From a virus, in the IMG/VR virus record IMGVR_UViG_3300018078_000004, positions 1 to 31,018 of that record: DNA of 31,018 nt; one strand, given 5' to 3'. The notes beneath the pieces are model-generated. The model searched no databases, had not been told where the DNA came from, and saw only the letters and a list, made by a program, of their open reading frames with translations. Positions within the stretch are counted from its first letter, which is position 1. Every line of letters begins with the position of its first letter. The position numbers and the translations under genes were made by a program. This document shows, one piece after another, positions 3,868 through 29,100 of the stretch.

Positions 3868-5105
3868 TCGCTCTGACCGCTCAGTCGTTCTTCTCGCGTT
3901 GTGGGCTGATAGCCCTGGAAGCTGTTGCCCTGGATGCTTATCTTGAGCATTCGGGACTTGACCATAATATCGAGTACTCGCATGATCGAATGAGCGGGTA
4001 CGCGCTCGCGCAAGAAGTGGACTACGCGATGTTCCCCGACTGGCTTATTTTCTTTGGAGTAGATCATCCACACATAGTTCCAGGCCTCTTCCATTGCGGC
4101 CGAGTCTCCTCCAGTCATCATTGACTTGAAGATGTCTGGCATGTACCGCTCGGCCTCGGTAAGCCAGTTTAAGGCCTCGCTGTAGTGTTCAATCCCGATA
4201 ACTCTGTCGCTCGAGTGGGATATGCTTGATATCATGCATAGTTTCAGCAGATGAGCGACTCGCCGAGAGTTATAGTACTGTAGCTTTTGATGGGCGGGCT
4301 CGGGCTTACAGCCGCCACTTACCCAGGCTTTGACTGCCTTGGCTGCGGGGGTGGTGAAGGCCATTTGTCCATATTCAGTGGCGATCGTCTTGAGATCGTG
4401 AAGGAGATCTCCTCGGAGACGACCGGTGAGGACGGTGATGTCAGCGTCACCGAAAGGGTCTTTAAGTACCCTATCACCTGAATAGATGAGTATCGTTCTG
4501 GAAACGAAGCCTTGATCCCAAGCCCCCGCAGGCATAACCTCGTTAAGATATGAAGGAGTACACGCTCCCAGTAGGTTGATCTGCGGATGAGCGATTTTGA
4601 TCCTAAGATCCTTCCCGCGTCTCTTCTGATCCAGCGTAAAGCCATCGTATATGTCCGTCAGGTTGTTCATGAGCGAGTTCTCCCAGGCTGGGATCAGCAC
4701 GCCAAGCTCACGAGAGATGACTGTAAGAGAGTTGAACTCCACGTAGGGGTCTGGCCCCGCGAGTAGGGTCAGTCGTCTGACTGACTCGTTCAGGGCGTCA
4801 ATAAGACTCGCCGAGGTCATATCCGAGGGGCCGACTTTTAGCTCTGGCACCTCCCGTAACATAGACTCTCCGAAATGGATCGCCTGTCCCTTGCCAATTC
4901 CGGGGGGTCCCACTAAGAGCACGTAGAGGCCCGGATATAGGTTTGAGCCCATAGTCCGAACCCAGAGTTTTCGTTCCATCGCGGCTGCTATGAAGAAGAT
5001 CGCCACCCACTTGCGGAATAACGGAGGGGAAGGTAGAATTTCCGTGTACTCTTGGTATGCGTCGATCCAGCTGCCGAGTCGCCTAGTTACGGGAGCGGCG
5101 CTCAT
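3864..5105 (-). CDS. P-loop ATPase, DUF3987-like replication protein
   Basis: A 413-residue protein with a clear Walker A motif, LLVGPPGIGKGQA (about residues 62-74), followed by an Asp/Glu-rich segment and an acidic VISRELGVL stretch likely to be the Walker B/sensor region. The arrangement (N-terminal WIDAYQEYTEILPSPPLFRKW, then Walker A, then helical C-terminus) resembles phage and prophage DUF3987/YfjI-type proteins linked to primases or helicases. Its place after the DNA polymerase suggests helicase-like or loader function in replication. The start ATG overlaps the polymerase end by 23 bases in another frame. Enzymatic activity is inferred, not shown. Confidence 0.65.
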   Translation of the reverse strand: MSAAPVTRRLGSWIDAYQEYTEILPSPPLFRKWVAIFFIAAAMERKLWVRTMGSNLYPGLYVLLVGPPGIGKGQAIHFGESMLREVPELKVGPSDMTSASLIDALNESVRRLTLLAGPDPYVEFNSLTVISRELGVLIPAWENSLMNNLTDIYDGFTLDQKRRGKDLRIKIAHPQINLLGACTPSYLNEVMPAGAWDQGFVSRTILIYSGDRVLKDPFGDADITVLTGRLRGDLLHDLKTIATEYGQMAFTTPAAKAVKAWVSGGCKPEPAHQKLQYYNSRRVAHLLKLCMISSISHSSDRVIGIEHYSEALNWLTEAERYMPDIFKSMMTGGDSAAMEEAWNYVWMIYSKENKPVGEHRVVHFLRERVPAHSIMRVLDIMVKSRMLKISIQGNSFQGYQPTTREERLSGQSD

Positions 5106-6570
5106 CTGGCCACTTTGAAAGTCCGCCGGGATTATCTTTTGTTGCCTTACTCCAGTTCCATCCCACTTGGACTTCTACGGGGACGACGAACTGTCTACCT
5201 CCCTCCAGTTCGATCGGAACCCGCATGGCCGAGAGTATCTGCGGCAAGATTTCATTCTCCCTCTCCTCTGAGTATTGCATCAACAGTGAGTCATGACCTT
5301 GTAACAGAAGTTGAACTGTGTTCAAGCGCCACACGTTCATCATAGCGTTGTTCATCTCGTCGGCTGTCATGGACTGCCCCATATGGGCTACAGCCTGTTT
5401 AAGGGTATCTCGTTCGTCGCGCTTACCAAAGAACCAGCGCTTGCGCCCGAGCGGTGTAACGAGGTTACCCGTCTCGATTAGCTGCGTTTGTATCCATGCG
5501 TGCAGTCGTGGGATCGCCGGAAAAGTCTTGAAATAAAGCGTCTGAAACTCTTTAATAACGTCTTGGTCGATCTTGGTGTGCTTCGACATCTCATAGGGGC
5601 TTCCCAGGTAATTCGTACCGTGGCCAAGCACCTTACACATATGGCGCAGTCCATAATGGCGGTAGTAGGGCTGTTCCGCGATCCTCCGATCCTCACTGAG
5701 TGAGTTAGTCCAGGGCAGATCGGGTCTTGACATTCTAGCGACCGTAGTGTGGAGATCACCCGACTCACAGGCATCCAGATATTTTCCATCTCTGAACACA
5801 TTCCAGCACAAAGCTCCTATGTTGCGGCTATCAGCCTGTTCAAGATCGACGTTAGCGAACTTCATCCCTGGGTCGGCAACGACTATTCTTCGTAATCGCT
5901 CCTCAATGTTCTGAAGATTTCCGCCTGTACCAAAGTCATTGAGGCTAGAAGAAAATCTACCTGTTGTTGTTCCGGCAATGTTATAACTCGTCCTGAGCCT
6001 GCCATCTGGATCAATTTTCGTTTCAAGGACACCAATCTTTTTTCCAAAGTCTCTAAGAGCGAGAATATGTCCAATAATTGGCTGTGCGATAAAGTGTATC
6101 TGTAGTCGCTCAAGTGCGTCACGGTTGACTGTTCGGGCGAGTTGCCCGGTAGCGTTTCGCTTTCTAATCTCCGGAAGCTTGAGAATATCATAGAGTAGAA
6201 TAGCGACAAGGGCATTCGATCGCCATGCTCGAGTTCTTCCCGAATTTCTGAAATCGGTATATCCGACTCCATCATGAACGATGTGATAGAGGTTCCGTTC
6301 GAGTCTCTCAGTATCACGTGTATAAGAGTCGATTGCCAGTCGTCGTTCTCGCTCATCTATCAATACTCCATGAAGGTTCATCTCCATAACCGGAGCCTGA
6401 AGCGACCGCGACAACGCGTAGGTACCGCCGGTTAGATTATCCAACTGCGGAAGCAGCGCCTCAAGGACTTCGAGGGTCACACAACAGTCGAGGCCATTAT
6501 AGATCCACAAGCGCTCAGTTTCGGACTTTGGGTCGCCGGGGCGCAGGGCGTCGGTGCGAGTGACTTTCAT
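5083..6570 (-). CDS. Family A DNA polymerase with only the last motif of the 3'-5' exonuclease
   Basis: A 495-residue PolA-type polymerase. Visible motifs: TTTGRFSS...NLQN (201-221), motif A VDLEQADSR with catalytic Asp242, motif B with Arg309, Lys313 and Tyr321, and motif C QGHDSLL with His426-Asp427. The position matching E. coli Phe762 is His317, which is unusual. The position matching Glu710 is Asp247. At the N-terminus, IYNGLDCCVTLE (Tyr24, Asp28) matches Exo III of a DEDDy proofreading domain. Exo I and Exo II are in the separate upstream protein at 7059-8090. The start is ATG 6570, not the open-frame ATG at 6603, because it overlaps the stop of the 38-residue membrane peptide (ATGA). 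The role is phage DNA synthesis. Confidence 0.9.
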   Translation of the reverse strand: MKVTRTDALRPGDPKSETERLWIYNGLDCCVTLEVLEALLPQLDNLTGGTYALSRSLQAPVMEMNLHGVLIDERERRLAIDSYTRDTERLERNLYHIVHDGVGYTDFRNSGRTRAWRSNALVAILLYDILKLPEIRKRNATGQLARTVNRDALERLQIHFIAQPIIGHILALRDFGKKIGVLETKIDPDGRLRTSYNIAGTTTGRFSSSLNDFGTGGNLQNIEERLRRIVVADPGMKFANVDLEQADSRNIGALCWNVFRDGKYLDACESGDLHTTVARMSRPDLPWTNSLSEDRRIAEQPYYRHYGLRHMCKVLGHGTNYLGSPYEMSKHTKIDQDVIKEFQTLYFKTFPAIPRLHAWIQTQLIETGNLVTPLGRKRWFFGKRDERDTLKQAVAHMGQSMTADEMNNAMMNVWRLNTVQLLLQGHDSLLMQYSEERENEILPQILSAMRVPIELEGGRQFVVPVEVQVGWNWSKATKDNPGGLSKWPDERRSRN

Positions 6571-6683
6571 TCGGCAACCATAACTATGGCTATGATCCAA
6601 CAAAGGATGAAAAATAGAACAGATACTGCGATCTGCCCTAGCAGAATAACGTCGAGCCAGTCATTTATCCAGGGCCGCTTCAT
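6567..6683 (-). CDS. 38-residue membrane peptide between exonuclease and polymerase genes
   Basis: A short gene with a polar start (MKRPWINDWLDV), one strongly hydrophobic helix (about residues 13-36) and a GTG-free coding frame ending in VAE. Its ATG overlaps the stop of the 38-residue gene upstream and its stop overlaps the polymerase ATG, both as ATGA. The double coupling is the main evidence that it is translated. No family is recognised. It sits in an insertion-like position inside what is normally one gene (exonuclease-polymerase), so it may have no replication role at all. Confidence 0.6.
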   Translation of the reverse strand: MKRPWINDWLDVILLGQIAVSVLFFILCWIIAIVMVAE

Positions 6684-7058: not shown

Positions 7059-8090
7059 TCAGTCCTCCTTTTTGATAGTACCTTTGTGTTTAAGACGAAT
7101 ACCGAGCTTCCATGCGCTTTCATTTGTATATACTGATCCAAGATAGTCAAGCCCTTTTGGAGCTTCCGGCTGCAGAGCGTGGTGTAAAAGCATCGTGTCG
7201 TGGACAGCGTTCCTGACAGGAACCCCGTACGTCTTCCACAAGCGGGACATATCAAATATACCATTCTGGAACACCTTTGCTACAGGAGAGTCTAGCACCT
7301 TCCGCACCCAGGCCCAGGCGGCCATCTCGGCCTCGAGTGAGGGCCAATAGTTTCCGCCCGGCTTTCGTAGGTCCTCGAACGGCACTACGAGTGCTATGTC
7401 GATCGCGGGCGAAAAGCCTATGCAGGTTATTCGATCCCCTCTGGTTTCGATATCCACAGAGAGATAGGTAGCTCTTGCGATGAACTTTTCGGCGAACCAG
7501 TCGAGTTCTGAGAGGAGCGGTTCGGTATATATGGATCGCTGAGGGCGTCGTATCTCTGGGTATTCACTTTCGCGACGTGCTTTTTGTAGATCGAGGATAG
7601 TCACATGCCTAGACTCGTAGCTACCTTGGAGGATATAGGAGGGGTGGAATGTTGGGAGGCACTTTTTTCCTGCCAGAATGGAGGAACTTGCGACTGCCCC
7701 ACGAAGTTTCGATATTCTACCGTCACGTAGTATTGCCCAGGCGGCAGTTCCCCCGAGACAGACAATGACATTTGGATCAGCTTTAGTAAGTTCTGCGTAA
7801 AGTCTGTCGAGTTCAGGGAGAAATTCATCGCGGATGTACTTGCCAGATGATAGCGGCGGGAGCGCATGACGAACCTCCTTACGGGTTGCACATAGGTTCT
7901 CGATCTTATTAGTCGGGCGCGGCCGCAAGTTGAAGCAGTTCGTGAGAAAGCAATCGGCTCGGACGATCCCGGCCTCGGTCAACATAGAGTTCAACTGCCA
8001 GCCCGCAGGCCCGACGAATGGCATCCGTGCACGCTCCTCGTGCTCGCCCCAGGCCTCTCCGACGAGGGCTATTTTATACTTTGTTGACAT
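7059..8090 (-). CDS. Uracil-DNA glycosylase-like domain fused to the N-terminal part of a 3'-5' exonuclease
   Basis: This 343-residue protein has two parts. Residues 1-170 look like a family 4/5-type uracil-DNA glycosylase: VGEAWGEHEE (10-19), MPFVGPAG (23-30) and FHPSYIL (148-154). Residues about 195-343 look like a DEDDy exonuclease: Exo I YLSVDIET with Asp213/Glu215, Exo II AKVFQNGIFDM with Asp280, and then the HDTMLLHHAL...GLDYLGSVY segment that usually precedes Exo III. The protein stops before Exo III, which is found in the polymerase protein. A related arrangement, glycosylase plus polymerase, is known in SPO1-like phages. The start overlaps the upstream gene by 17 bases. Proofreading would need assembly with the polymerase. 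Confidence 0.8.
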   Translation of the reverse strand: MSTKYKIALVGEAWGEHEERARMPFVGPAGWQLNSMLTEAGIVRADCFLTNCFNLRPRPTNKIENLCATRKEVRHALPPLSSGKYIRDEFLPELDRLYAELTKADPNVIVCLGGTAAWAILRDGRISKLRGAVASSSILAGKKCLPTFHPSYILQGSYESRHVTILDLQKARRESEYPEIRRPQRSIYTEPLLSELDWFAEKFIARATYLSVDIETRGDRITCIGFSPAIDIALVVPFEDLRKPGGNYWPSLEAEMAAWAWVRKVLDSPVAKVFQNGIFDMSRLWKTYGVPVRNAVHDTMLLHHALQPEAPKGLDYLGSVYTNESAWKLGIRLKHKGTIKKED

Positions 8091-8295: not shown

Positions 8296-8468
8296 TATGG
8301 TCTCCACGGGACGCCACGGAAAACTCGATAGGCCAATCTATGCCCCGCTTTTTGGCAGACTATATAAGCATTCTGTCTTGACATTTCGAGTATTCGTGCG
8401 ATTTCCGCATAGCTCTTGCCTTCAAGGAACAGATCAAGGGCCTTTGCGCGTTTCTCCCAATCGTGCAC
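8295..8468 (-). CDS. Small helix-turn-helix protein, start uncertain
   Basis: The segment ALDLFLEGKSYAEIARIL followed by EMSRQNAYIVCQKAG reads as a classic helix-turn-helix of the resolvase/sigma type, where recognition residues follow the A-E-I-A turn. The frame stays open far upstream inside the methyltransferase gene. I chose GTG 8468 (57 residues) because AGAAG/GGAAG precede it and it limits overlap with the methyltransferase end to 35 bases. It is likely a small DNA-binding regulator, perhaps of this gene block. Its C-terminus overlaps the next gene's ATG. Confidence 0.6.
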   Translation of the reverse strand: MHDWEKRAKALDLFLEGKSYAEIARILEMSRQNAYIVCQKAGHRLAYRVFRGVPWRP

Positions 8469-9774
8469 CCGCTTCCGCTTCTGTGGCTTTTCGAAGTCTT
8501 CTACTTTTTTCCAGGGCCTCTTTTGCCAATAGGGCGAATTCTGAGCTGACTTCAATTCCCAAGCAGTTTTTACAGCCAAGAGATTCAGCCGCTCGCAAGG
8601 CACTGCCACTTCCACAAGTGGGATCGAGCAGAACCGTATTCTCGTCGCACAGCATCCCAAAGAAGTGGCGCAGCATTGGCTCGGGTTTTTCTGACATATG
8701 GCGGTCCCGTACTGTTGGAGCAGCGTAAGCGTTAGCCACTGCTCGAACGATCTTGCGGTCTCCGCGGCTTCCAAAAAGGCATGTTTCATATATCTGTCGA
8801 GGGCCACGTTCTGGGTCAGGGAGGATACCAGCGCCATCGCTTTTCATCCATATTAGAGGTTGGGGATTGATATTCCAGCCCATACGTTCGAGGGCGCGTG
8901 CAGTGGGCTCGTAGAGTCTGCTGTCGCCCTTGCGCATAGCGAACCAAAACATCAGATGGCATGACTGCGCCGTTAGGCGCTTGGTGGTTATCTCGAGAGC
9001 TGTCATGAGACGCTCCCACGTCTCGCGAGTATCGGTATAGCCTCCATGCGAGGCTGCTCCGCCCTGATTGAACTCATTAGCCTCGATCCCATAGGGAAAG
9101 TCACAGTGGATAAAGTTGAATCTGGAGCCCGTGGCTCTTTCCGACTGAGACCACTCTACGAAATCAGCAACCTGGATACTTTCCTGCGGCTGCTCGCCTT
9201 CGAGTTTCACGCCACCAAAGGTATTATGAAGCTTTTCTATCCCCTCCTGATAACGACGCTCAAGCGCCCGTTCGGTTATGCCAGCGGCTGTGGAGAGCTT
9301 TGGTGCTTCCAGCACGAGCTTGTTCCCACGTCTCATTTCCTCGTCGATCTGAAGAAGCCGACCAGTATGCTGTGGGGATAGACCAATAGCGCTAGCAGTA
9401 TCATTTTGCCCCCAGTTGGTTTCCTCGCGCGCGCGAATAGAGTGATATCGAGCTACGGCGCGGACTTGGTCTTGCCAGGATATGTCCTGGCGTTTGATGT
9501 TCTCTTCGAGTTCGATAGCCTCGAGTTTCGCGGGCTCGAGTTCATCCACAAATTGAACTGGGATATTCGTCCATCCGAGCTTCGTACAGGCGGAAAGTCG
9601 CCGCTCGCCAGCGACCAGATCGCGCTGACGGGTTACGACGATAGGGTGAATAAGTCCGAGACGACGGATGGAGTCCATCAGAACGTCGATGTCCTTGAGT
9701 TCCCGTCGTTGGCGCTCGTCCCGCTTGACTGTGATGCTGTCAAGCGGGACCATATGGAAAATTCCAGAAGTCAT
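8434..9774 (-). CDS. ParB-like nuclease/partition domain fused to DNA methyltransferase
   Basis: A 446-residue fusion. Residues about 5-145 match the ParB/Srx fold: VPLDSITVKRDERQR, LGLIHPIVV, LVAGERRLSA (GERR 56-59) and ELEENIKRQDISW, then an HTH-like stretch ASAIGLSPQHTGRLL. Residues about 218-425 form an amino-methyltransferase with motif IV as DFPYG (225-229; the usual form is DPPY) and motif I as DPTCGSGS (384-391), in the order seen in beta-class enzymes. SEKPEPMLRHF is also typical. It probably methylates adenine or cytosine N4 at a specific site, for self-marking or regulation. ATG 9774 overlaps the upstream stop (ATGA). No partner restriction enzyme is visible. Confidence 0.85.
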   Translation of the reverse strand: MTSGIFHMVPLDSITVKRDERQRRELKDIDVLMDSIRRLGLIHPIVVTRQRDLVAGERRLSACTKLGWTNIPVQFVDELEPAKLEAIELEENIKRQDISWQDQVRAVARYHSIRAREETNWGQNDTASAIGLSPQHTGRLLQIDEEMRRGNKLVLEAPKLSTAAGITERALERRYQEGIEKLHNTFGGVKLEGEQPQESIQVADFVEWSQSERATGSRFNFIHCDFPYGIEANEFNQGGAASHGGYTDTRETWERLMTALEITTKRLTAQSCHLMFWFAMRKGDSRLYEPTARALERMGWNINPQPLIWMKSDGAGILPDPERGPRQIYETCLFGSRGDRKIVRAVANAYAAPTVRDRHMSEKPEPMLRHFFGMLCDENTVLLDPTCGSGSALRAAESLGCKNCLGIEVSSEFALLAKEALEKSRRLRKATEAEAGARLGETRKGP

Positions 9775-9914
9775 GGTACGTCTACCTTCTGTAGCGCTTC
9801 TTCTACATCCCTCATCATATCGAATGCTCGAAGTTTCTTTTCTTCTGTGAGTGACATTTGCTGAGCCCATATAGCGAGCAAGGACATAAGCGCTAGCAGC
9901 TGCGTAAGAGTCAT
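9771..9914 (-). CDS. 47-residue peptide with hydrophobic N-terminus
   Basis: The gene encodes a hydrophobic stretch (LTQLLALMSLLAIWAQQ) followed by a charged amphipathic helix (EEKKLRAFDMMRDVEEALQ). ATG overlaps the stop of the coiled-coil gene upstream and its stop overlaps the ATG of the ParB-methyltransferase, both as ATGA. AGAAGG near its end can serve as the Shine-Dalgarno for the fusion gene. No known family. It could be a membrane-associated helical adaptor, but function cannot be assigned. Confidence 0.65.
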   Translation of the reverse strand: MTLTQLLALMSLLAIWAQQMSLTEEKKLRAFDMMRDVEEALQKVDVP

Positions 9915-17423: not shown

Positions 17424-18917
17424 TCACAGGTCCTCCATGAGTCCATCAAGCCGGACAAAGAACAGTGACTCTTTCGCCCGTGTCTCTATGACGTAACGGA
17501 CATTAAACTCTTGCTGGAGCGCTTCCCCCTCTTTGGACCACGGGCTCGGAATTCTATGGGGGTCCAGGTGATAGACAGTTTGCCATTCAAGCCCTTTAGC
17601 CTTATGTCCCGATAGCAGCTGTATTGGACCTTTGGACGAAAAAAGGCGCTCGCAGTAAGCAATAGCCGCTCCGAGAGTAGGTCCGAATTCAGCGAAAACA
17701 CGTAGGCACTCAGCTTTATCCGCCACGGTTCCTGGGTTACGCGCCTTGCGGAGTTTGTCCGCCTCCCAGACATTGATCGCCTCATAGACCTTCTCCTGCG
17801 GAAGTTGCATATCGTCGCTCAGTTTCTTAAGAGCCCGCACAAGCTGAGGACCAAGGTCAGTGCCAACAAGGTGGACACCTCTTCCGGCCCTAAGAAGTGC
17901 GAGAGCGCAGCTAAGTAGAGGAGCATTGTTGCGACAGATAATAGCGCTATTGTCTGGTATGTCATTGGCCTTCCACTCCTCTAGAGTTGTGACCTGACCC
18001 TCCTTGGCCCACTCGGGCCAGCGCATATGAGGGACACGCTTGTGAGCGTTGCGGACCACGGAACGTGGACAGCGGAATGAGACGCTGAGCGTCATCTCGT
18101 GCATCGAGAAACGCTCGCGGAGATAACCCATCGACCTCGTGTCCGCGCCCCGGAAAGCATAGATGCTCTGCCAGGGATCACCGACTGCACCGAGCCAGGT
18201 GCTCGGCCCAACGAGCTTATCGAGCATGGCGTGGTTCAGCGGGCTGAAGTCCTGCACCTCGTCAGCCATGACGCGACGGTGCTGAGGAAACGATCCGCCG
18301 AAGAGTGTAGACATATAGATCTGGTCGTCGAAGTCAATCAATCCACCGTAGGACTGCCTGATCCCCGCCGCGAGCACATTGTTGATTATCTCGCAGAACC
18401 AGTCATCGGGCTCCTCTTCGAGCCCACCGAAGAACTCTTCGTTAGTCAGGATGGACTTGCCCTGAACTGAGTTCGGCGGCACGTAGCCTGAGAGCTTCGC
18501 GCGCGCAACAGTTTTGATGATGTCTCCCATGATCTCATAGGAGGCCTCACGATCGCGCTTTGGCAGGCGGTCGATAGCCTCTTTGACGAGGTTATAGTTC
18601 TTTTTGGTGTCGAGCACGAGGCGTTTGCCAACTGCGGCACCCCAAACCCTGTGCCCGATCGAGTTCATAGTGGCGCACCTAACGTGACCGGGCAAGACCT
18701 TGCCCATCTCTTCGGCAATGCGCTTGTTGAACGCCAACGAGACAGTAGGCTCGATCGGCAGATACTTGCACAGGAACCGCAAGGTGCTGGTCTTGGCCGC
18801 GCCCGCTAGAGCACTGATCAGTAGGTTCTGACTGTTCCCGAGCGCGAAGTCTATGATTGCGGTCTGTTCCTCGGTGGCCTCAAGGACCTTGCCGTCTGTT
18901 TCGAGTGTATAGGTCAT
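17424..18917 (-). CDS. UvrD/PcrA-like superfamily I helicase
   Basis: A 497-residue helicase. Visible motifs: LISALAGAAKTSTL (33-46), the Walker A region with Ala where Gly normally precedes the Lys; RVMADEVQDFSP (motif II, Asp218-Glu219); LGAVGDPWQSIYAFRGAD (motif III, 241-258); LSVSFRCP (motif IV); LLSGHKAKGLEW (motif V) and VRYVIETRAKESL (motif VI). It translocates along ssDNA and unwinds DNA during replication or repair. Its ATG overlaps the upstream stop (ATGA). It is shorter than bacterial UvrD, with reduced accessory domains. AGAAKT may be a family variant; activity would depend on the flanking residues. Confidence 0.9.
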   Translation of the reverse strand: MTYTLETDGKVLEATEEQTAIIDFALGNSQNLLISALAGAAKTSTLRFLCKYLPIEPTVSLAFNKRIAEEMGKVLPGHVRCATMNSIGHRVWGAAVGKRLVLDTKKNYNLVKEAIDRLPKRDREASYEIMGDIIKTVARAKLSGYVPPNSVQGKSILTNEEFFGGLEEEPDDWFCEIINNVLAAGIRQSYGGLIDFDDQIYMSTLFGGSFPQHRRVMADEVQDFSPLNHAMLDKLVGPSTWLGAVGDPWQSIYAFRGADTRSMGYLRERFSMHEMTLSVSFRCPRSVVRNAHKRVPHMRWPEWAKEGQVTTLEEWKANDIPDNSAIICRNNAPLLSCALALLRAGRGVHLVGTDLGPQLVRALKKLSDDMQLPQEKVYEAINVWEADKLRKARNPGTVADKAECLRVFAEFGPTLGAAIAYCERLFSSKGPIQLLSGHKAKGLEWQTVYHLDPHRIPSPWSKEGEALQQEFNVRYVIETRAKESLFFVRLDGLMEDL

Positions 18918-19593: not shown

Positions 19594-20030
19594 CACTCGT
19601 CCCACTTAAAGACGTATGCCAAGACTCCTGGCATTGACTCGTCCATCGGCTCTATGATACCGGCCTTGAGCAGGTCTTCAACCTCTGGCGGAGGTACGAT
19701 ACCCGATCGGTACGGTGTAAACCTGCGCACCTCGGTCGGGCGCTTGAGCAATCTCGCCATCTTGAGTGCCTTGAGCATTCCGGGAGACCAACCGAGATCT
19801 ACGTAAAAGACTATTTTGTCTGCGGCGTACATCCACTCGTATCCAGCTTGGATACCGCGCTCGCGCTCGGCTGGGATCGAGTCATCGAGGACATCCGGCT
19901 GAGTGTACAACAGATGGCTTGCCAGAGGCGCCTCACCTCTATCGAGACAATGCCGAAGGCACCGCCGAGCGTAGGCGGTGTTGCGCTCGATGTCGCCTGC
20001 GTAGGGCGACTCGACTATAACGAGGTTCAT
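19593..20030 (-). CDS. Nucleoside deoxyribosyltransferase-like protein (DUF7768/DUF4406 type)
   Basis: A 145-residue protein with the usual landmarks of this family: ESPYAGDIERNTAYAR, GEAPLASHLLYTQPDVL, RERGIQAGYEWMYAAD, and VFYVDLGWSPGMLKAL. The fold is related to nucleoside 2-deoxyribosyltransferases and is common in phages, probably acting on nucleotides or as a degenerate binding domain. The conserved Ser/Tyr/Asp residues are kept, but the reaction is not known. ATG overlaps the previous stop (ATGA). Confidence 0.8.
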   Translation of the reverse strand: MNLVIVESPYAGDIERNTAYARRCLRHCLDRGEAPLASHLLYTQPDVLDDSIPAERERGIQAGYEWMYAADKIVFYVDLGWSPGMLKALKMARLLKRPTEVRRFTPYRSGIVPPPEVEDLLKAGIIEPMDESMPGVLAYVFKWDE

Positions 20031-21306: not shown

Positions 21307-21554
21307 CAGGGATGCCCCTTGCGGGCAAGGTGCTGAGCGATACGGCCGAACGGGACCATCCGGTTACAGGTGCAAGTGTAGAAGATGCGGTGGCCTTTGT
21401 AGCCCTTAGATTTGATAACTGTGACCTTGACCCCGTCGATCTCCTCGACCGAAGCGTGCTCGGGCGGGATATGCTGGCCGCGACGAAAGCCGAGAAGGTT
21501 GAGCATCTCGTCGGAGTTGACTGGGCGACCCCAAGCGTTGCGAAGGTAGTTCAT
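21306..21554 (-). CDS. Small zinc-finger-like protein
   Basis: An 82-residue protein whose C-terminal half carries YTCTCNRMVPFGRIAQHLAR and KGH, giving a C-x-C...H...H pattern like a compact zinc finger. The N-terminal half is helical (SDEMLNLLGFRRGQHIPPEH). ATG overlaps the HNH gene stop (ATGA) and AAGGAGTCAG precedes it, inside the HNH coding end. Likely nucleic-acid binding, but that is inference. Confidence 0.65.
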   Translation of the reverse strand: MNYLRNAWGRPVNSDEMLNLLGFRRGQHIPPEHASVEEIDGVKVTVIKSKGYKGHRIFYTCTCNRMVPFGRIAQHLARKGHP

Positions 21555-21952
21555 TGGGCTGACTCCTTAAGTGGTTGTGGACTCCAGTATTTGAGCTGTT
21601 TGAGAGCCTCGATATACTCTTGCTCTCTCCGTGTTTTCCAACTGTTAGCAACATTGCGGCTGTTGGAAATAACGCGTAGGTTACAGAGACGGTTATCGCG
21701 AGTGTCACCATTGATATGGTCTACGACAAGACCCGGAGCCGGCCATTGGCCGTGCACGAGTGCCCATATGATTCGACTAACTGAATGAGTTTTGCCCTCG
21801 AACCTAATCCGAGCGTATTCACTTTTACGGCGCTGATTGGTGCTGGTTCGCGCGCTCGGACCAGATAGCACAACGCCAGTTCGCCTGTATGCGAAGCGGC
21901 CTGTGTTGGGCTCGTAGTCGAATGTCTCGACGAGTTTTGGTATTAGGGACAT
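21551..21952 (-). CDS. HNH homing endonuclease 3
   Basis: A 133-residue HNH protein with FDYEPNTGRFAYRRTG, SVSRIIWALVHGQWP and HNH core LVVDHINGDTRDNRLCNLRVISNSRNV. ATG 21952 is used; the frame is open to 21997, but that section is low-quality. No strong Shine-Dalgarno. Its stop is within the start signal of the zinc-finger-like gene. It lies at the end of the control region, after the hairpin. Confidence 0.85.
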   Translation of the reverse strand: MSLIPKLVETFDYEPNTGRFAYRRTGVVLSGPSARTSTNQRRKSEYARIRFEGKTHSVSRIIWALVHGQWPAPGLVVDHINGDTRDNRLCNLRVISNSRNVANSWKTRREQEYIEALKQLKYWSPQPLKESAQ

Positions 21953-22043
21953 TTTTCGATTATGGCATCGAATGTGGACAAAATTGTGGCGGGACACGCC
22001 CGCTCGAAGATTTATTTTGCAGCGAGATCAGGCTTCATTCGCT

Positions 22044-22342
22044 GGGTATGGCTCTGTCATGTCTTCCTCAACCTATGATATGCCCTTCCTAGTGCTACTA
22101 TGCCTATGTTTACGGTTTTGCGACGCGCATTGGGGTGGCTCCAGAGAGGAGGCAAGGGTCGAGTGGGGTGCTCTTAGTCTTAGTCTATATATATATATTT
22201 ATAAGGGTAGTAGGGGCAAACTGGGGCCTTGGGGTCCATCCTCTGAGCCATACCAATACGCGTCGCAAAAGCCGAAATGTAGGCATAGTAGCGTTAGGAA
22301 GGGTATATCATAGGTTGAGGAAGACGAGACGTAGCCATACCC
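22044..22342 (+). repeat. Long imperfect inverted repeat (hairpin), arms about 105 bp
   Basis: Left arm 22044 to about 22150 pairs with right arm about 22238 to 22342, leaving a loop of roughly 87 bases. Perfect stretches include 22063-22080 with 22306-22323 (18 bp) and 22094-22106 with 22280-22292 (13 bp). By hand alignment, arm differences include eight that are G-U wobbles in a plus-strand RNA and one that is A-C. A minus-strand RNA would instead have eight A-C mismatches. The tips read GGGTATGGCT and AGCCATACCC. No target-site duplication was seen. Confidence 0.9.
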
Positions 22343-22415
22343 GGGGCTGAGCCCCCCGCGAGACACTCCACGAGACGCGTGGCTAAGCCCCCTGATGCTC
22401 CCGCAGCAACGAGTG

Positions 22416-22451
22416 AAAAATGGGTACGATACCGATTGGGTATCGTACCCA
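22416..22451 (-). terminator. Strong minus-strand terminator hairpin
   Basis: The 13-bp stem (22421-22433 with 22439-22451, loop 5) is followed on the minus strand by TTTTT (complement of 22416-22420). GAGTGA/TCACTC can extend the stem beyond the A-run. This is a classic Rho-independent terminator located right after the 26-residue membrane gene. It should stop minus transcription before the long hairpin. Confidence 0.85.
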
Positions 22452-22455
22452 TCAC

Positions 22456-22536
22456 TCACTGTTCTACCGCCGTACCAACTATGAAACCGCAGCAGAAACC
22501 GAACCAAACTACCACAATCAGGACTAGGATTTCCAT
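22456..22536 (-). CDS. 26-residue membrane peptide between two terminators
   Basis: MEILVLIVVVWFGFCCGFIV, then GTAVEQ. It is a single hydrophobic helix. GGGGAG lies 8 bases before ATG 22536, starting just after the T-run of the 22552 terminator, and the second terminator begins within a few bases of the stop. The bracketing by two terminators suggests that read-through past the first one produces it at low level. Unknown function. Confidence 0.6.
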   Translation of the reverse strand: MEILVLIVVVWFGFCCGFIVGTAVEQ

Positions 22537-22590: not shown

Positions 22591-22941
22591 CTACGCGGCG
22601 ACGGCCACGGGGACTCGGACCAAACCCAACTTGGCCAGCTCCTCGTCGGTCATTTCGCCGGCCTGCTCGGCCAGGGTCTTGACCGGAGTCTTGGTCGTGG
22701 TGCGAGTGCCCGGAACGTTGCCACTCACGATTTGATCCCAACGCTTCTGGGCCTTGGCGAGTGCGGCCGCGTTGAACTCTGCGTCGGTTTTGAACTCTGT
22801 TCGCTTCACTCCCGCAGTCGTATCGACCACGGCTTGGGTCGCGCCGTAGCGGATGATGTATTCGAGTGACACAGGCGGAAGCGACTCGATCTCGATCGAG
22901 AACGTGTGATCAGCCTTCGGGACGTTGACGTTGAGCAACAT
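22591..22941 (-). CDS. Independently transcribed 116-residue protein of unknown function
   Basis: Starts at ATG 22941 with GGAGTCAG 4 bases upstream. Sequence: a beta-rich start (MLLNVNVPKADHTFSIEIES), a Lys/Ala-rich helix (AALAKAQKRWDQIV), a Thr-rich linker and a C-terminal EMTDEELAKLGLVRVPV. It has its own promoter (22988-23016) and terminator (22552-22580), so it is expected to be abundantly made early. No family is recognised. It may be a DNA- or RNA-binding early protein, but nothing in the sequence proves it. Confidence 0.7.
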   Translation of the reverse strand: MLLNVNVPKADHTFSIEIESLPPVSLEYIIRYGATQAVVDTTAGVKRTEFKTDAEFNAAALAKAQKRWDQIVSGNVPGTRTTTKTPVKTLAEQAGEMTDEELAKLGLVRVPVAVAA

Positions 22942-22987
22942 GGTTCTGACTCCATTTCGGCTGGGATCATTCCCAAACCGTGAGTGG

Positions 22988-23016
22988 ATCATACATCCGC
23001 GCCACTCCATTGTCAC
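22988..23016 (-). promoter_or_regulatory. Sigma-70-type promoter for the 22591 gene
   Basis: Minus-strand -35 GTGACA (23011-23016) and -10 TATGAT (22988-22993) are separated by 17 bases. Each hexamer has one mismatch to consensus. The predicted start lies about 40 bases upstream of the ATG at 22941. Confidence 0.65.
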
Positions 23017-23117: not shown

Positions 23118-23341
23118 GTGTTGCGCTTGCGCTGCAGTGTGGCATGGTGGAGTGTGGCCTGCGGGAGACTGTTGCAAAGCAATTATAGAAGGGGGAGGGG
23201 GCAAAAAACGAACTTTTCTTGCTGGGCGCTTCAACCCCGCTAGAAAAATCCCCTCCCTACAGCCATATCCGGGCCTCCGGCCCTGAGCCCTCGGGGGCCG
23301 GTTCATCCGCCAGTTCTGGTCCCCTCTGGGACCGATTTCAC

Positions 23342-23370
23342 TTGACTCGCTCCGGCAAAAACGGTATCAT
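23342..23370 (+). promoter_or_regulatory. Sigma-70-type promoter for the rightward packaging block
   Basis: TTGACT (23342-23347), a 17-base spacer and TATCAT (23365-23370). Each hexamer differs from consensus at one base. It points at the genes from 23416 onward, including terminase, sponge and fibre genes. Confidence 0.65.
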
Positions 23371-23415: not shown

Positions 23416-23589
23416 ATGGGCGACAGAGTTCATCCGCTAGGGCGCCCGGCCAAGGTGGAACTGGAGCCGCTTAACGACGCGGACTATGTCCGGGCGCGGA
23501 ATGCTCAAGACGCCGAGGGCTGTGACGGGCTGCTTGAGCGCCTGCGAAAACATCATCCCGAGAGGGACCCATGTCCGACGACGAACTAA
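23416..23589 (+). CDS. Small protein before terminase, existence uncertain
   Basis: 57 residues from ATG 23416 (TTG 23398 is possible). It has LGRPAKVELEPLNDADYVRA then RLRKHHPERDPCPTTN and overlaps the small terminase start by 19 bases. There is no strong Shine-Dalgarno. It begins about 40 bases after the promoter's predicted start. No family is recognised, so treat it as a candidate gene. Confidence 0.4.
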   Translation: MGDRVHPLGRPAKVELEPLNDADYVRARNAQDAEGCDGLLERLRKHHPERDPCPTTN

Positions 23590-24191
23590 TTGAATCTCTG
23601 GATCTCTCTGGTCCCATCGAGCGGCACCGCACTGTCGGAGCGATGCACAAGGAATTCTACATTGCCTACGAGAAGGATTTGTCCGCGGCGGACCTCGCGG
23701 CGCTCGAGCTTCCACGACCTCGGGCGCCGCGAACTCTTCAACGCATCCACGCCAGTCACCACTCGCTCGCGCGGTGCCTTGCTGTAGGGATGAAACAGAG
23801 CGAAGCCTCGCTGATCACCGGATACAGCTACACCCGAATGAAGCAACTCGAAGAGGACGCGGCCTTCAAAGACCTTGTTGCGGACTATCGCCAAGAGGCC
23901 AAGTCAGTCGTCGCGGATATGACCGAGCGGATGAACATCATGTCCCTCGACGCGATGGAACTTCTGCAGGAGCGAATGCAGGATAATCCCGAGCTGCTGA
24001 CCGTTCCAGTCCTGCTGGACATCATCAAGGCCTTCGCCGATCGAACTGGCCACGGGCCGGGACAAGAGGTCAAACTGACCCTCGATCGAGATCTTATAGA
24101 TCGACCGCCGCGCGAAACTGCTGAAGAGTGGAGCGCCCGTCGCGCGCGGGAACTTACGGGCGAGTCCACTGAAGTGAAGAAACTCAACTGA
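23571..24191 (+). CDS. terS: Probable terminase small subunit
   Basis: A 206-residue protein with a central HTH-like segment (RCLAVGMKQSEASLITGYSY, then RMKQLEEDAAFKDLV), typical of small terminases, a helical oligomerisation stretch (ADMTERMNIMSLDAMELLQE) and a polar C-terminus with basic end. Small terminases bind the packaging site and regulate the motor. The gene lies directly ahead of the sponge and large terminase genes. GAGAGG precedes the ATG. Family assignment is from pattern and position. Confidence 0.75.
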   Translation: MSDDELIESLDLSGPIERHRTVGAMHKEFYIAYEKDLSAADLAALELPRPRAPRTLQRIHASHHSLARCLAVGMKQSEASLITGYSYTRMKQLEEDAAFKDLVADYRQEAKSVVADMTERMNIMSLDAMELLQERMQDNPELLTVPVLLDIIKAFADRTGHGPGQEVKLTLDRDLIDRPPRETAEEWSARRARELTGESTEVKKLN

Positions 24192-24654: not shown

Positions 24655-26130
24655 GTGCCTGTCGCGCCCCGTAGCGCAGCTTGGAGTCCACAGCCGGGGC
24701 CTCAAACCGAGGCCATAATGGCTGATTGGTGCGATGAGCTGTTCTACGGCGGCGCGGCTGGAGGGGGAAAGAGTGATTTTCTGTTAGGTGATTTTCTGCA
24801 AGATGTACCCACCTACGATAAACGGTGGCAGGGGATATTGTTCCGTCGGACCTACAACGAGCTTGAGGACTTGATCCGCCGCGCGCGCGAGATCTACCCC
24901 GCGTCTGGCGCTGTTTGGCACGAACAGGCCAAGACTTGGACCTGGCCAAACGGCGCCAGTCTGCGTATGCGCTATGTTGAAAGGGACGCAGATGCCACAC
25001 GCTATCAGGGTCACCAATATACCTGGATCGGATGGGATGAGCTTACGCAGTGGCCCTCCGACTACGCATATCGCTTCCTCCGAGCGCGATTACGCAGCGC
25101 TCATGGAGTCCCTACAAAACGTATTCGGGCTGCGGCTAACCCCGGCGGAGTGGGCCATCACTGGGTCAAAGCTTATTTCGTCGATCCGCATCCAGGGGGC
25201 TACATTCCCATTGAGGACTCGATCGTCAAGTCCAAAAGGATGTTCGTTCCCGCTAAACTACGAGATAATCAGATCCTATTATCCGCCGATCCCACCTACG
25301 GAGATCGACTCCGCGGGCTTGCGTCCGACGCTATGGTGCGAGCGTGGCTCGAGGGCGACTGGACCGTGGTCGAGGGCGCCTATTTCGACTGTTGGCGCTA
25401 CGATTTACACGTTTTGGAGCCCTTTGACATCCCGCGGGAGTGGCCACGGTTCCGTTCGATGGACTGGGGCTCGTCCAGACCGTTTTCAGTCGGCTGGTGG
25501 GCTATCGTAACAGAGGACTTTTGGGCTCAGGGGCAGCGGACCGAGAAAAAGACTCGTTTGGTGCCTCGCGGCGCGCTTGTGCGGTGCCGAGAGTGGTACG
25601 GAATGACCTCTGCGTTCAACGTAGGGCTGAAATTGACCGCTGAGGGGGTCGCTGAGGGCATCAAAAAGCGCGAAAAAGAGGCAAAAGACCCTCAAATGCG
25701 ATATGCAGTGCTCGATCCTGCCTGTTTCAAGGAGGACGGCGGGCCGAGCATCGCTGAACGCATAAACAAGGTGCTTTTAGGTGCTCGCCTGAAGCCTTTT
25801 CACGCTGCGGAGAACGCTCGGGTCCCGCAGCGTGGCGCAATGGGGGGCTGGGATCAAATGCGGGCGCGCTTAGTTGGGCATGATGGTCTACCAATGATCT
25901 ACTGCCTCAGTACGCACGCAGCATCTATCCGAACGATCCCAGCCCTCCAGCACGACCCCGCTCGAATGGAGGACGTGAACACAGAGTCTGAAGATCACGC
26001 GGCGGATGAGTGGCGCTACGCCTGTATGTCGAGACCCTACGCCCCGGTCCCGGTCAAAGTTACTATGGCGAAGAAAATCGGTTACACTGCTAAGACCTCC
26101 AAGGCCGCGGGCGACTGGATGATCTACTGA
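24655..26130 (+). CDS. terL: Terminase large subunit
   Basis: A 491-residue packaging motor. Residues 11-19 give the SPQPGPQTE signature, then Walker A FYGGAAGGGKSD (about 30-41) and Walker B TWIGWDEL with Asp128/Glu129. The RNase H-like nuclease has RSMDWGSS (Asp270), YAVLDPACF (Asp354) and EDHAADEWRY (Asp447/Asp451). It powers DNA translocation into the procapsid and cuts concatemers, in the Terminase_6 style. GTG 24655 is used because the conserved QPGPQT stretch lies before the first in-frame ATG (24718). The Shine-Dalgarno is weak. Confidence 0.92.
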   Translation: MPVAPRSAAWSPQPGPQTEAIMADWCDELFYGGAAGGGKSDFLLGDFLQDVPTYDKRWQGILFRRTYNELEDLIRRAREIYPASGAVWHEQAKTWTWPNGASLRMRYVERDADATRYQGHQYTWIGWDELTQWPSDYAYRFLRARLRSAHGVPTKRIRAAANPGGVGHHWVKAYFVDPHPGGYIPIEDSIVKSKRMFVPAKLRDNQILLSADPTYGDRLRGLASDAMVRAWLEGDWTVVEGAYFDCWRYDLHVLEPFDIPREWPRFRSMDWGSSRPFSVGWWAIVTEDFWAQGQRTEKKTRLVPRGALVRCREWYGMTSAFNVGLKLTAEGVAEGIKKREKEAKDPQMRYAVLDPACFKEDGGPSIAERINKVLLGARLKPFHAAENARVPQRGAMGGWDQMRARLVGHDGLPMIYCLSTHAASIRTIPALQHDPARMEDVNTESEDHAADEWRYACMSRPYAPVPVKVTMAKKIGYTAKTSKAAGDWMIY

Positions 26131-29100
26131 TGGCGCATAAGATCGAGGATCGCATCAGAGATACTACCACGTCAAGTGGTGTAGGTCCCCTTACGGTCAC
26201 CGGAACTGCTCCAACTCGGTATCGAGCCTTCAGTGCTGTTTGCGCTCCGGCAGATACTATCTGGATCGCCACTGTTCACCAGACCGCGAACGAGTGGGAA
26301 GTAGCGCTTGCCACCTCCGACGGGGGAACAGGGCTAACTCGGACGACCATTCTCAGTTCATCCAACGGCGGTGCGGCAGTCAGTTTCTCGGCGGGGACTA
26401 AAGATGTTTTCGCAGTTCATCCAGCGGCCGAAATCTATCCGTTTGTCTTCACAGACGTAGTCAAGGGCCTCGTTCCGGCCTCTGGCGGCGGCAGCACGAA
26501 CTTTCTTCGCGCCGATGGCACTTGGAATACCCCCGGCGGGAGCAGCACTAACGCATTTGGAACTATCGTTGTCAGCGGTCAGAGTGACGTGGTCGCTGAG
26601 ACAGCTCCGGATACTTTGACCCTTGTCGCCGGAACTAACATAACTATTACCACCGATGCCGGAACAGATACGATCACTATTAACGCCTCTGGCGGTGCCT
26701 CTGCCGGTGGAGCCGATACCCAAATCCAGTTTAATGATGGCGGCGCGTTCGGGGCTGATGCGGATTTCACTTGGAACAAGACCACCAACGCGCTGTTCGT
26801 GAACGGGACTATTGAACTCGGTGCCGCGAGCGATACTACCCTCGCGCGGGTAAGTGCCGGAGTGGTGTCGATCGAGGGCGTTACGATCCTTACCACGGCC
26901 ACTGGTCAACCGCTCGATGCCGATCTGACCTCGTGGGCGTCGGTCACTAGGGCGGCCGGATTTGATGCCTTCGCGGCCACACCCTCCAGCGCTAATCTCG
27001 ACACTTTAGTGACAGACGATACCGGCTCTGGCGCGCTGGTCTTTGCCAACACACCTACGCTCGTATCGCCCCTTCTGGGAACTCCAACATCTGGCGTGCT
27101 GACCAACTGTACGGGCCTTCCGAGTATCGTGGTGGCGAACGAAGGCACTGATACAACGTGTTTTATAGCCTTCTTCACTGGCGCCACGGGCGAACTCGGA
27201 CCCAAGACCAACGCGAACCTGACCTACAACTCCAATACTGGTGCCTTCTCCATAGGCACGGCTGCGGCCTTTACGGCCGGAACTATCGAACTAGGCGCCG
27301 CTTCAGATACGACGCTGGCACGCGTTTCTGCGGGCGTAGTGTCCATCGAAGGCGTGACCATTCTAACCACCGCAACGGGGCAACCCCTGGATGCGGATTT
27401 AACTTCTTGGGCTGGAGTTACTCGGGCGGCTGGCTTCGATACCTTCGCCACCACCCCGTCTAGTGCCAATCTTATCACGTTAGTCACCGACGAAACCGGA
27501 ACTGGGGCGTTGGTGTTTGCCAATACTCCATCCCTGATTACGCCAAAGATCGCTGATAGTGCTGGTGGGCAGTTTTATAATTTCGCAGTCAGTAATCTCA
27601 CGGCTGATCGAATAGTGACGCTGCCATTGCTTACGGCTGGTGACACCTTTGTATTTGAGGCCCATGCGCAGACGCTCACAAATAAAACCATTGCTCTGGG
27701 CAGTAACACAGTCTCCGGCTCGGTGGCCGAGTTCAATGCCGCCCTGACTGCAGCGGACTTCTACACCACAGGCGGCACCGACGTATCCCTGGCCGATGGT
27801 GGTACTGGGGCCTCGCTGGTTGACCCTAACCTCGACCGTTTTCTCTTCTGGGACGACAGCGCGGGTACCATCAAGTTCGCCATCCTGGCTGACCTCATCA
27901 CGGAAGCCGCCCCCGCAGCGGGAGACTTCATCCTGGTGCAGCGCGCGGAGGATGACCTTGTTAAAGTTAACTGGTCCTCGCTCCCTGTCGGTGGGGTGCC
28001 AACCCTCATCACGGTGGCGAACGAGGCCACCGATACTACGTGCTTCCCGGCGTTCTTCACCGCTGCGACCGGAGACCTCGGGCCGAAGACCAATACGAAC
28101 CTCACCTACAATTCTAACACTGGGGCCTTCTCGATTGGCACTGCGGCAGCCCTCACTGCTGGCACGATTGAACTCGGTGCTGCCTCTGATACAACTCTGG
28201 CCCGCTCTGGCGCTGGTGATGTGACCATCGAAGGTAACACGGTCTATCGCGTAGGCGGCACCGATGTTGCTTTGGCCGACGGCGGAACCGGTGCATCACT
28301 GACAGATCCTAATCTTGATCGTGTCTTGATGTGGGATGACAGTGCAGCGACTATTAAGTTTGCTGACCTCGCTTCACTAACTACTGAAGGTGCTCCTGCT
28401 GCGGGAGACTTTTTGTTGGTGCAGCGAGCTGAGGATGACATTGTCAAAGTGAATTGGTCTTCTCTTCCTGGGGTGGGCGGCGGCATCTCTAACGTGGTCG
28501 AGGACAGCACGCCCGAGTTGGGCGGCGACCTGGAGACCAACAACTTCGACATCAAGTTCGAACAATACAGCGCCGACGCGGTAGACGCGGAAGCAATCTT
28601 CCAGAAGTCCCGCAACGCGGCTATCGGATCGCACACCATCGTCCAGGACGGCGATGACCTGGGTACGCTCCGCTTCCAAGGCTCCAACGGCACCACCTTC
28701 GACACCGCCGCTTTAATCCTTGCTGAAGTGGATGCCACGCCTGGTGCCTCCGCTGATATGCCGGGCAGGCTTAGCTTCTGGACTACACCAGATGCTTCGG
28801 CAACGCCACTAGAGCGGATGCGGATTTCAAACGCTGGGGGCGTGGCCATCGGAGGCGGCGGGGCGGGGGTGTTTGGAACCATATTCACAGTCCAGGGCAA
28901 CAGCACACTCCCTGTTGTGGTGGACTTCGGCCATTGGGAGGCGAGCAACGTCGGTCCTACCCAGCGGTTTATAAAGAGCCGCAGTGCCTCAATTGCTGGC
29001 GTTACTATCGTCAACGATGGTGACACTCTCGGGGTTATGCACTTCTACGGTGCAGATGGTACGAGTTATTCACTCGGCGCTCAGCTTGGCGTTTTCGTGG

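Follow-up and report, generated by a model that had tools for sequence, protein, structure and literature searches.

To our knowledge, only a few phages have mapped replication origins. The herpes simplex origins oriS and oriL are located between divergent genes. In oriS, inverted boxes surround an AT-rich spacer, (TA)n (PMC12543377). RepA_N iterons, e.g., those of the PLE satellite of phage ICP1, are inverted repeats that converge on a poly-A tract (PMC7145576), and in mitochondrial OriL a hairpin loop with a T-stretch on one strand is the start of primer synthesis (PMC4256270). Our literature search found no relevant report of a phage hairpin of the kind described below, and the family-wide element appears undescribed. 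Here, we report a long imperfect palindrome in a phage contig and its counterparts in related phages, which we regard, with moderate confidence and by analogy of layout, as a conserved cis-acting DNA element of the phage group and most likely its DNA replication origin.

The window (the whole stretch of DNA analyzed, 31,018 nucleotides) is a 31-kb phage contig. Its rightward genes include those for a putative small terminase, a large terminase, and an amidase endolysin, and its leftward genes those for DNA polymerase A, a DUF3987 protein, a methyltransferase, an AAA protein, a PD-(D/E)XK nuclease, and a UvrD-like helicase. The hairpin is flanked by leftward genes, and the small terminase gene is about 1.2 kb away (Table 1). 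Judging from the sequence, the start of the small leftward gene to the right of the hairpin is probably nearer 22943. We infer that the AATTGTGG/AATTGTGGCGGAATTATG motif left of the palindrome probably serves in the control of the leftward genes.

Table 1. Coordinates of the palindrome, its sites, and the neighboring genes in the window
Feature	Position	Strand	Basis or remark
Complete element (long, imperfect palindrome that folds on both strands)	22031..22356		Folds, inverted-repeat search, and alignment
Left arm of palindrome	22044..22141		85% complementary to right arm
Right arm of palindrome	22245..22342		Inverted-repeat search
Central (TA)n tract	22186..22198		Corresponds to the A10-27 run of most relatives
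GGTATGGCT site, left base of palindrome	22045..22053	+	
AGCCATACC site, right arm near apex	22246..22254	-	
AGCCATACC site, right base of palindrome	22333..22341	-	
AATTGTGG, just left of palindrome	21982..21989		Part of motif (AATTGTGGCGGAATTATG in close relatives)
HNH endonuclease gene (HNH_3), left neighbor	21551..21997	-	Outside element
Small leftward gene right of element	22591..23016	-	Kept in close relatives
Rightward sigma-70-like promoter TTGACT-17-TATCAT	23342..23370	+	Ahead of terminase genes
Putative small terminase gene, right landmark	23571..24191	+	Named from position before large terminase
Large terminase gene	24655..26130	+	
UvrD-like helicase gene, left landmark	17424..18917	-	

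The two arms (98 nt, ungapped, spaced by 103 nt) form an inverted repeat far longer than any other local one of the window. An earlier, sequence-only reading of this DNA had proposed a hairpin with arms aligned nearly end to end and enclosing a TATATA tract; both features stand, the tract being TATATATATATAT, and the perfect stretch of 18 bp claimed in the same reading exists but is slightly longer, at 21 bp (GTCTTCCTCAACCTATGATAT, by alignment). Folded as RNA, positions 22030-22360 gave -208.4 kcal/mol on the plus strand (shuffles, -111.9; sd, 5.8; z, -16.5) and -178.5 kcal/mol on the minus strand (z, -15.1), far beyond shuffles on each, and none of the shuffled sequences of this interval reached the stability of the real fold. 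An identical copy of the hairpin is present in another metagenome record (IMGVR 3300018053_000004); within its own record the inverted repeat is single copy.

Loci of relatives (mostly uncultured soil phages, represented by metagenome contigs) were fetched by large terminase and helicase and scanned for inverted repeats blind to sequence; a second, tract-anchored pass was chosen after the first had been seen. In about 30 related phages, a long imperfect palindrome (arms of about 60-200 nt) lies between the replication genes, which run leftward, and the small terminase gene, which runs rightward; the stems mostly share no sequence despite the same location. The center is a run of 10-27 A's in most relatives and (TA)n in a minority that includes the window. 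Poly-A runs share one orientation, with the A's on the strand that leads into the terminase genes; the exceptions are a second tract of L151 and a tract of the distant L079. Of 27 loci that reach from the helicase to the small terminase gene, all but L017 (i.e., 26) contain a homopolymer-A or (TA)n tract in this interval, with no such tract elsewhere over 282 kb. The hairpin around the tract was significant in 22 of the 27 (P<0.05, beyond the 95% level of random positions, a null made up mostly of coding DNA), and the tract lies at 0.38-0.54 of the element length; four of the 26 tracts (L105, L110, L115, and L127) had no hairpin by the symmetric test.

One circular genome, phage ctMlz233 (MW202489.1; 40,250 bp), carries the element, centered on A9, at about 38.4-38.6 kb, where it has no annotation as such. 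The same record has a 180-bp frame (39992-40171) annotated as class D beta-lactamase OXA-58, which looks like a misannotation. A DNA search of named phages returned no match, and an exact 18-mer search returned the window's twin and two unrelated coding matches (L003 and L005). Phages Pam5 and ctLpZ231, which are close by terminase only, lack the element. Bacterial genomes yielded only eight distant helicase relatives, none of which has it.

Because most relatives have, in the corresponding place, a long hairpin of differing sequence whose tip bears a unique A or TA run, the element points to a DNA control site rather than an RNA gene, and it would be a case of conserved DNA shape rather than sequence. 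It sits at or near the point where early genes, running left, and late genes, running right, part. It is also recognizable from sequence, as the sole A/TA tract of the region, inside a long palindrome, between the early and late blocks.

Conservation of pairing was assessed between the window and L090, whose helicases are 85% identical versus 55% for the hairpins. Between these two, 16-17 pairs are altered on both sides yet still paired and 28-39 are broken, and 64-70% of comparable pairs are kept, compared with 37-43% with partners slid. Compensatory changes, which the sequence-only reading had suggested as a check, are present in this pair; other pairs of relatives gave 0 to 8 two-sided changes. 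The conserved position in relatives and the two-sided changes show that the foldback is not due to chance. A foldback or MITE-like mobile element, or a functionless inverted duplication, would explain the inverted-repeat architecture, and a foldback element had been among the candidates listed earlier; it is scarcely credible for a structure that is single copy in its record, sits at the same place in phages with unrelated stems, and shows compensatory changes.

The arms are rich in short repeats (repeated 7-mers number 3.95 per 140 nt, as against 1.29 for random windows, which are mostly coding DNA), so part of the pairing may reflect inverted arrays of repeated sites. In 24 element regions, AAAAAAAA occurs in 17 (0.03 expected) and AGCCATAC in 15 (1.06 expected). 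The motif (A/G)TATGGCT / AGCCATA(C/T) is found at window positions 22045, 22246, 22333, 23261, and 23405, and in close relatives it recurs, in either orientation, within the palindrome region and also 10-550 bp ahead of the small terminase gene. It is probably a binding site of a phage protein.

The sequence-only reading had counted by hand eight G-U wobbles against one A-C pair and had taken this bias as a possible sign of a selected plus-strand RNA. The count was fair, and exact alignment keeps the bias: in plus-strand terms, G-T:A-C in the window is 9:1 in a strand-neutral core fold without G-U pairs and 13:1 to 16:1 in strand-symmetric gapped local alignments of different extents. Both neighboring genes lie on the minus strand (Table 1), and a plus-strand transcript would be antisense to them, as had been proposed. 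Across 30 nonredundant related hairpins, strand-symmetric alignment gave 224 G-T versus 209 A-C (237:210 in all, less 13:1 for the L004 hairpin, which is identical to that of the window). Were a plus-strand RNA selected, the relatives should favor G-T on the plus strand, and 224:209 therefore speaks against such selection as a family property, whereas equal G-T and A-C pairing is as expected of a DNA element. Individual hairpins lean either way (L114, 16:4; L147, 2:11; MW202489, 4:13). Local strand composition was rejected as the source of the window's G-T excess, since flanking composition and mismatch bias did not correlate across 28 hairpins. The excess is real but private to the window, and the origin reading does not account for it; a G-U bias in a single hairpin need not signal a selected RNA.

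A noncoding phage RNA, i.e., a transcribed hairpin whose long double strand and A-rich or TA-rich loop act as regulator, protein sponge, or decoy, would nonetheless fit the very stable folds in the window and its relatives, the strong G-T bias of the window together with the like leaning of L114, and the two-sided changes between the window and L090. It is made unlikely by the family-wide equality of G-T and A-C, by a stabler fold strand that changes between phages, plus or minus, with no consistent side, and by the lack of any matching Rfam family. Nor are promoters toward the hairpin enriched, and in distant relatives the hairpin lies upstream of the leftward promoter, not behind it. A selected plus-strand RNA was accordingly rejected as a property of the family.

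Within 250 nt to the left of the element, leftward sigma-70 promoters scored above the 99% level of random windows in 7 of 34 cases, three of the seven being TTGACA-17-TATACT, versus none above that level in both controls (rightward promoters on the left side and leftward promoters on the right side). The left-edge promoters read away from the element. In distant relatives, the terminase promoter reads right further on, and in five roughly full-length records of 47-49 kb (those behind L104, L125, L132, L148, and L149), gene direction diverges at the tract; the window's clade has one further small leftward unit between the element and the late promoter. The cumulative T-A skew of the window peaks in the bin starting at 22000, but some GC-skew poles lie away from the element. 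Skew turning points are thus in partial agreement with an origin, a test that is confounded, as gene direction alone would give them.

Promoters that abut the element, AGCCATAC sites at the element as well as shortly before the small terminase gene, and the position between divergent units in distant relatives would also suit a divergent-promoter control region, with repressor or activator sites and a palindrome that, extruded as a cruciform, absorbs supercoils or loops DNA. That explanation is on the unlikely side: alone, it leaves the A/T tract and the great length unexplained, and the extra leftward gene before the late promoter in the window's close relatives also weighs against it. A packaging or terminase recognition site (pac) is quite improbable. 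The small terminase gene is 0.4-2.5 kb away in most loci and AGCCATAC sites lie on both sides, but this spacing is variable (as much as 4.8 kb) and takes in whole genes, and contig ends at the tract with exact 127-bp overlaps look like assembly breaks of closed genomes.

Contigs end in or near the A-run in L101, L113, L148, L132, L104, and L125. A physical genome end at the tract was rejected, as three near-complete contigs (the records behind L104, L125, and L149) close by such overlaps, as in circular-graph assembly; such records, though labeled linear, probably represent complete genomes that were split during assembly. A hairpin telomere was rejected because contigs cross the center and have different genes on each side.

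A replication origin is the most probable function, since the layout, with inverted arms around an A/T-rich tract as in oriS and a position between divergent units in distant relatives and in the five roughly full-length records, resembles that of viral origins; the "origin structure" among the earlier candidates is now the best reading. Herpes simplex oriS and oriL are alike in having palindromic arms around an A/T tract among divergent transcription units. They differ in their much shorter stems, fixed sequence, and known origin-binding protein, whereas in the phage element the stem sequence is not conserved, the tract is mostly a one-sided A-run, and the initiator is only postulated. RepA_N iteron origins likewise have repeats as inverted halves converging on poly-A, but these halves are 3-13 bp and tandemly repeated. 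The element is instead one large palindrome with one tract; tandem direct-repeat iterons with inverted halves on poly-A are not present, and no RepA_N protein was found among 20 window proteins scanned in Pfam (part of the window proteins). Stems of 100 bp and more also exceed the needs of known iteron origins, which counts against the origin reading. Mitochondrial OriL shares the hairpin loop and one-strand T-stretch, a likeness of anatomy only, and differs in its short stem, single-strand activation, and mitochondrial polymerase. The oriS, RepA_N, and OriL likenesses are layout analogies that do not establish membership. Intrinsic terminators also combine an inverted repeat with an A/U tract, but there the U run directly follows the stem, whereas here the tract lies inside the apex and the stem is many times longer.

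If the element is an origin, a phage initiator would bind the repeated sites in both arms, the A/T tract would then open, and one or both strands would fold into the hairpin. Primers would begin in or beside the exposed tract, and two forks would leave along the two gene blocks. More tentatively, and as a possibility that we rate below the origin reading itself, the element could represent a type of phage origin that is so far undescribed but widespread among uncultured soil phages: a single, very long imperfect palindrome tipped by one A-run. In such a class, folding of the DNA itself (into a hairpin or a cruciform, one strand of which has a T-loop) would recruit the initiation or priming machinery, the shape being conserved while the stem sequence drifts. 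The origin reading offers a testable prediction for a large phage group without a cultured member.

Further features were seen near the element. A short, strong palindrome, ATGGGTACGATACC-GATT-GGGTATCGTACCCAT, lies just to its right at 22412-22460, with a related half-site at 19693-19712, and may be a terminator or operator. A 26-codon frame (22456-22536, minus strand) for a small membrane-like peptide (MEILVLIVVVWFGFCCGFIVGTAVEQ) separates the element from the small leftward gene, and relatives seem to have similar short frames. Upstream of the small terminase gene, a block at 23195-23250 (GGGGGCAAAAAA...GGGCGCTTCAACCCCGCTAGAAA) is recognizable in several relatives (L010, L023, L026, L029, L030, L051, and L016) and is a candidate packaging or control site.

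Elsewhere in the window, one minus-strand gene (7059-8090) combines a uracil-DNA glycosylase domain with a DNA-polymerase-type 3'-5' exonuclease domain, and the polymerase gene (5083-6603) matches the polymerase domain only. Another minus-strand gene (8434-9870) encodes a DNA methylase fused to a ParB N-terminal domain. A 1,399-codon gene contains, at 27126-28470, two pairs of 220-nt direct repeats that are 72-74% identical.
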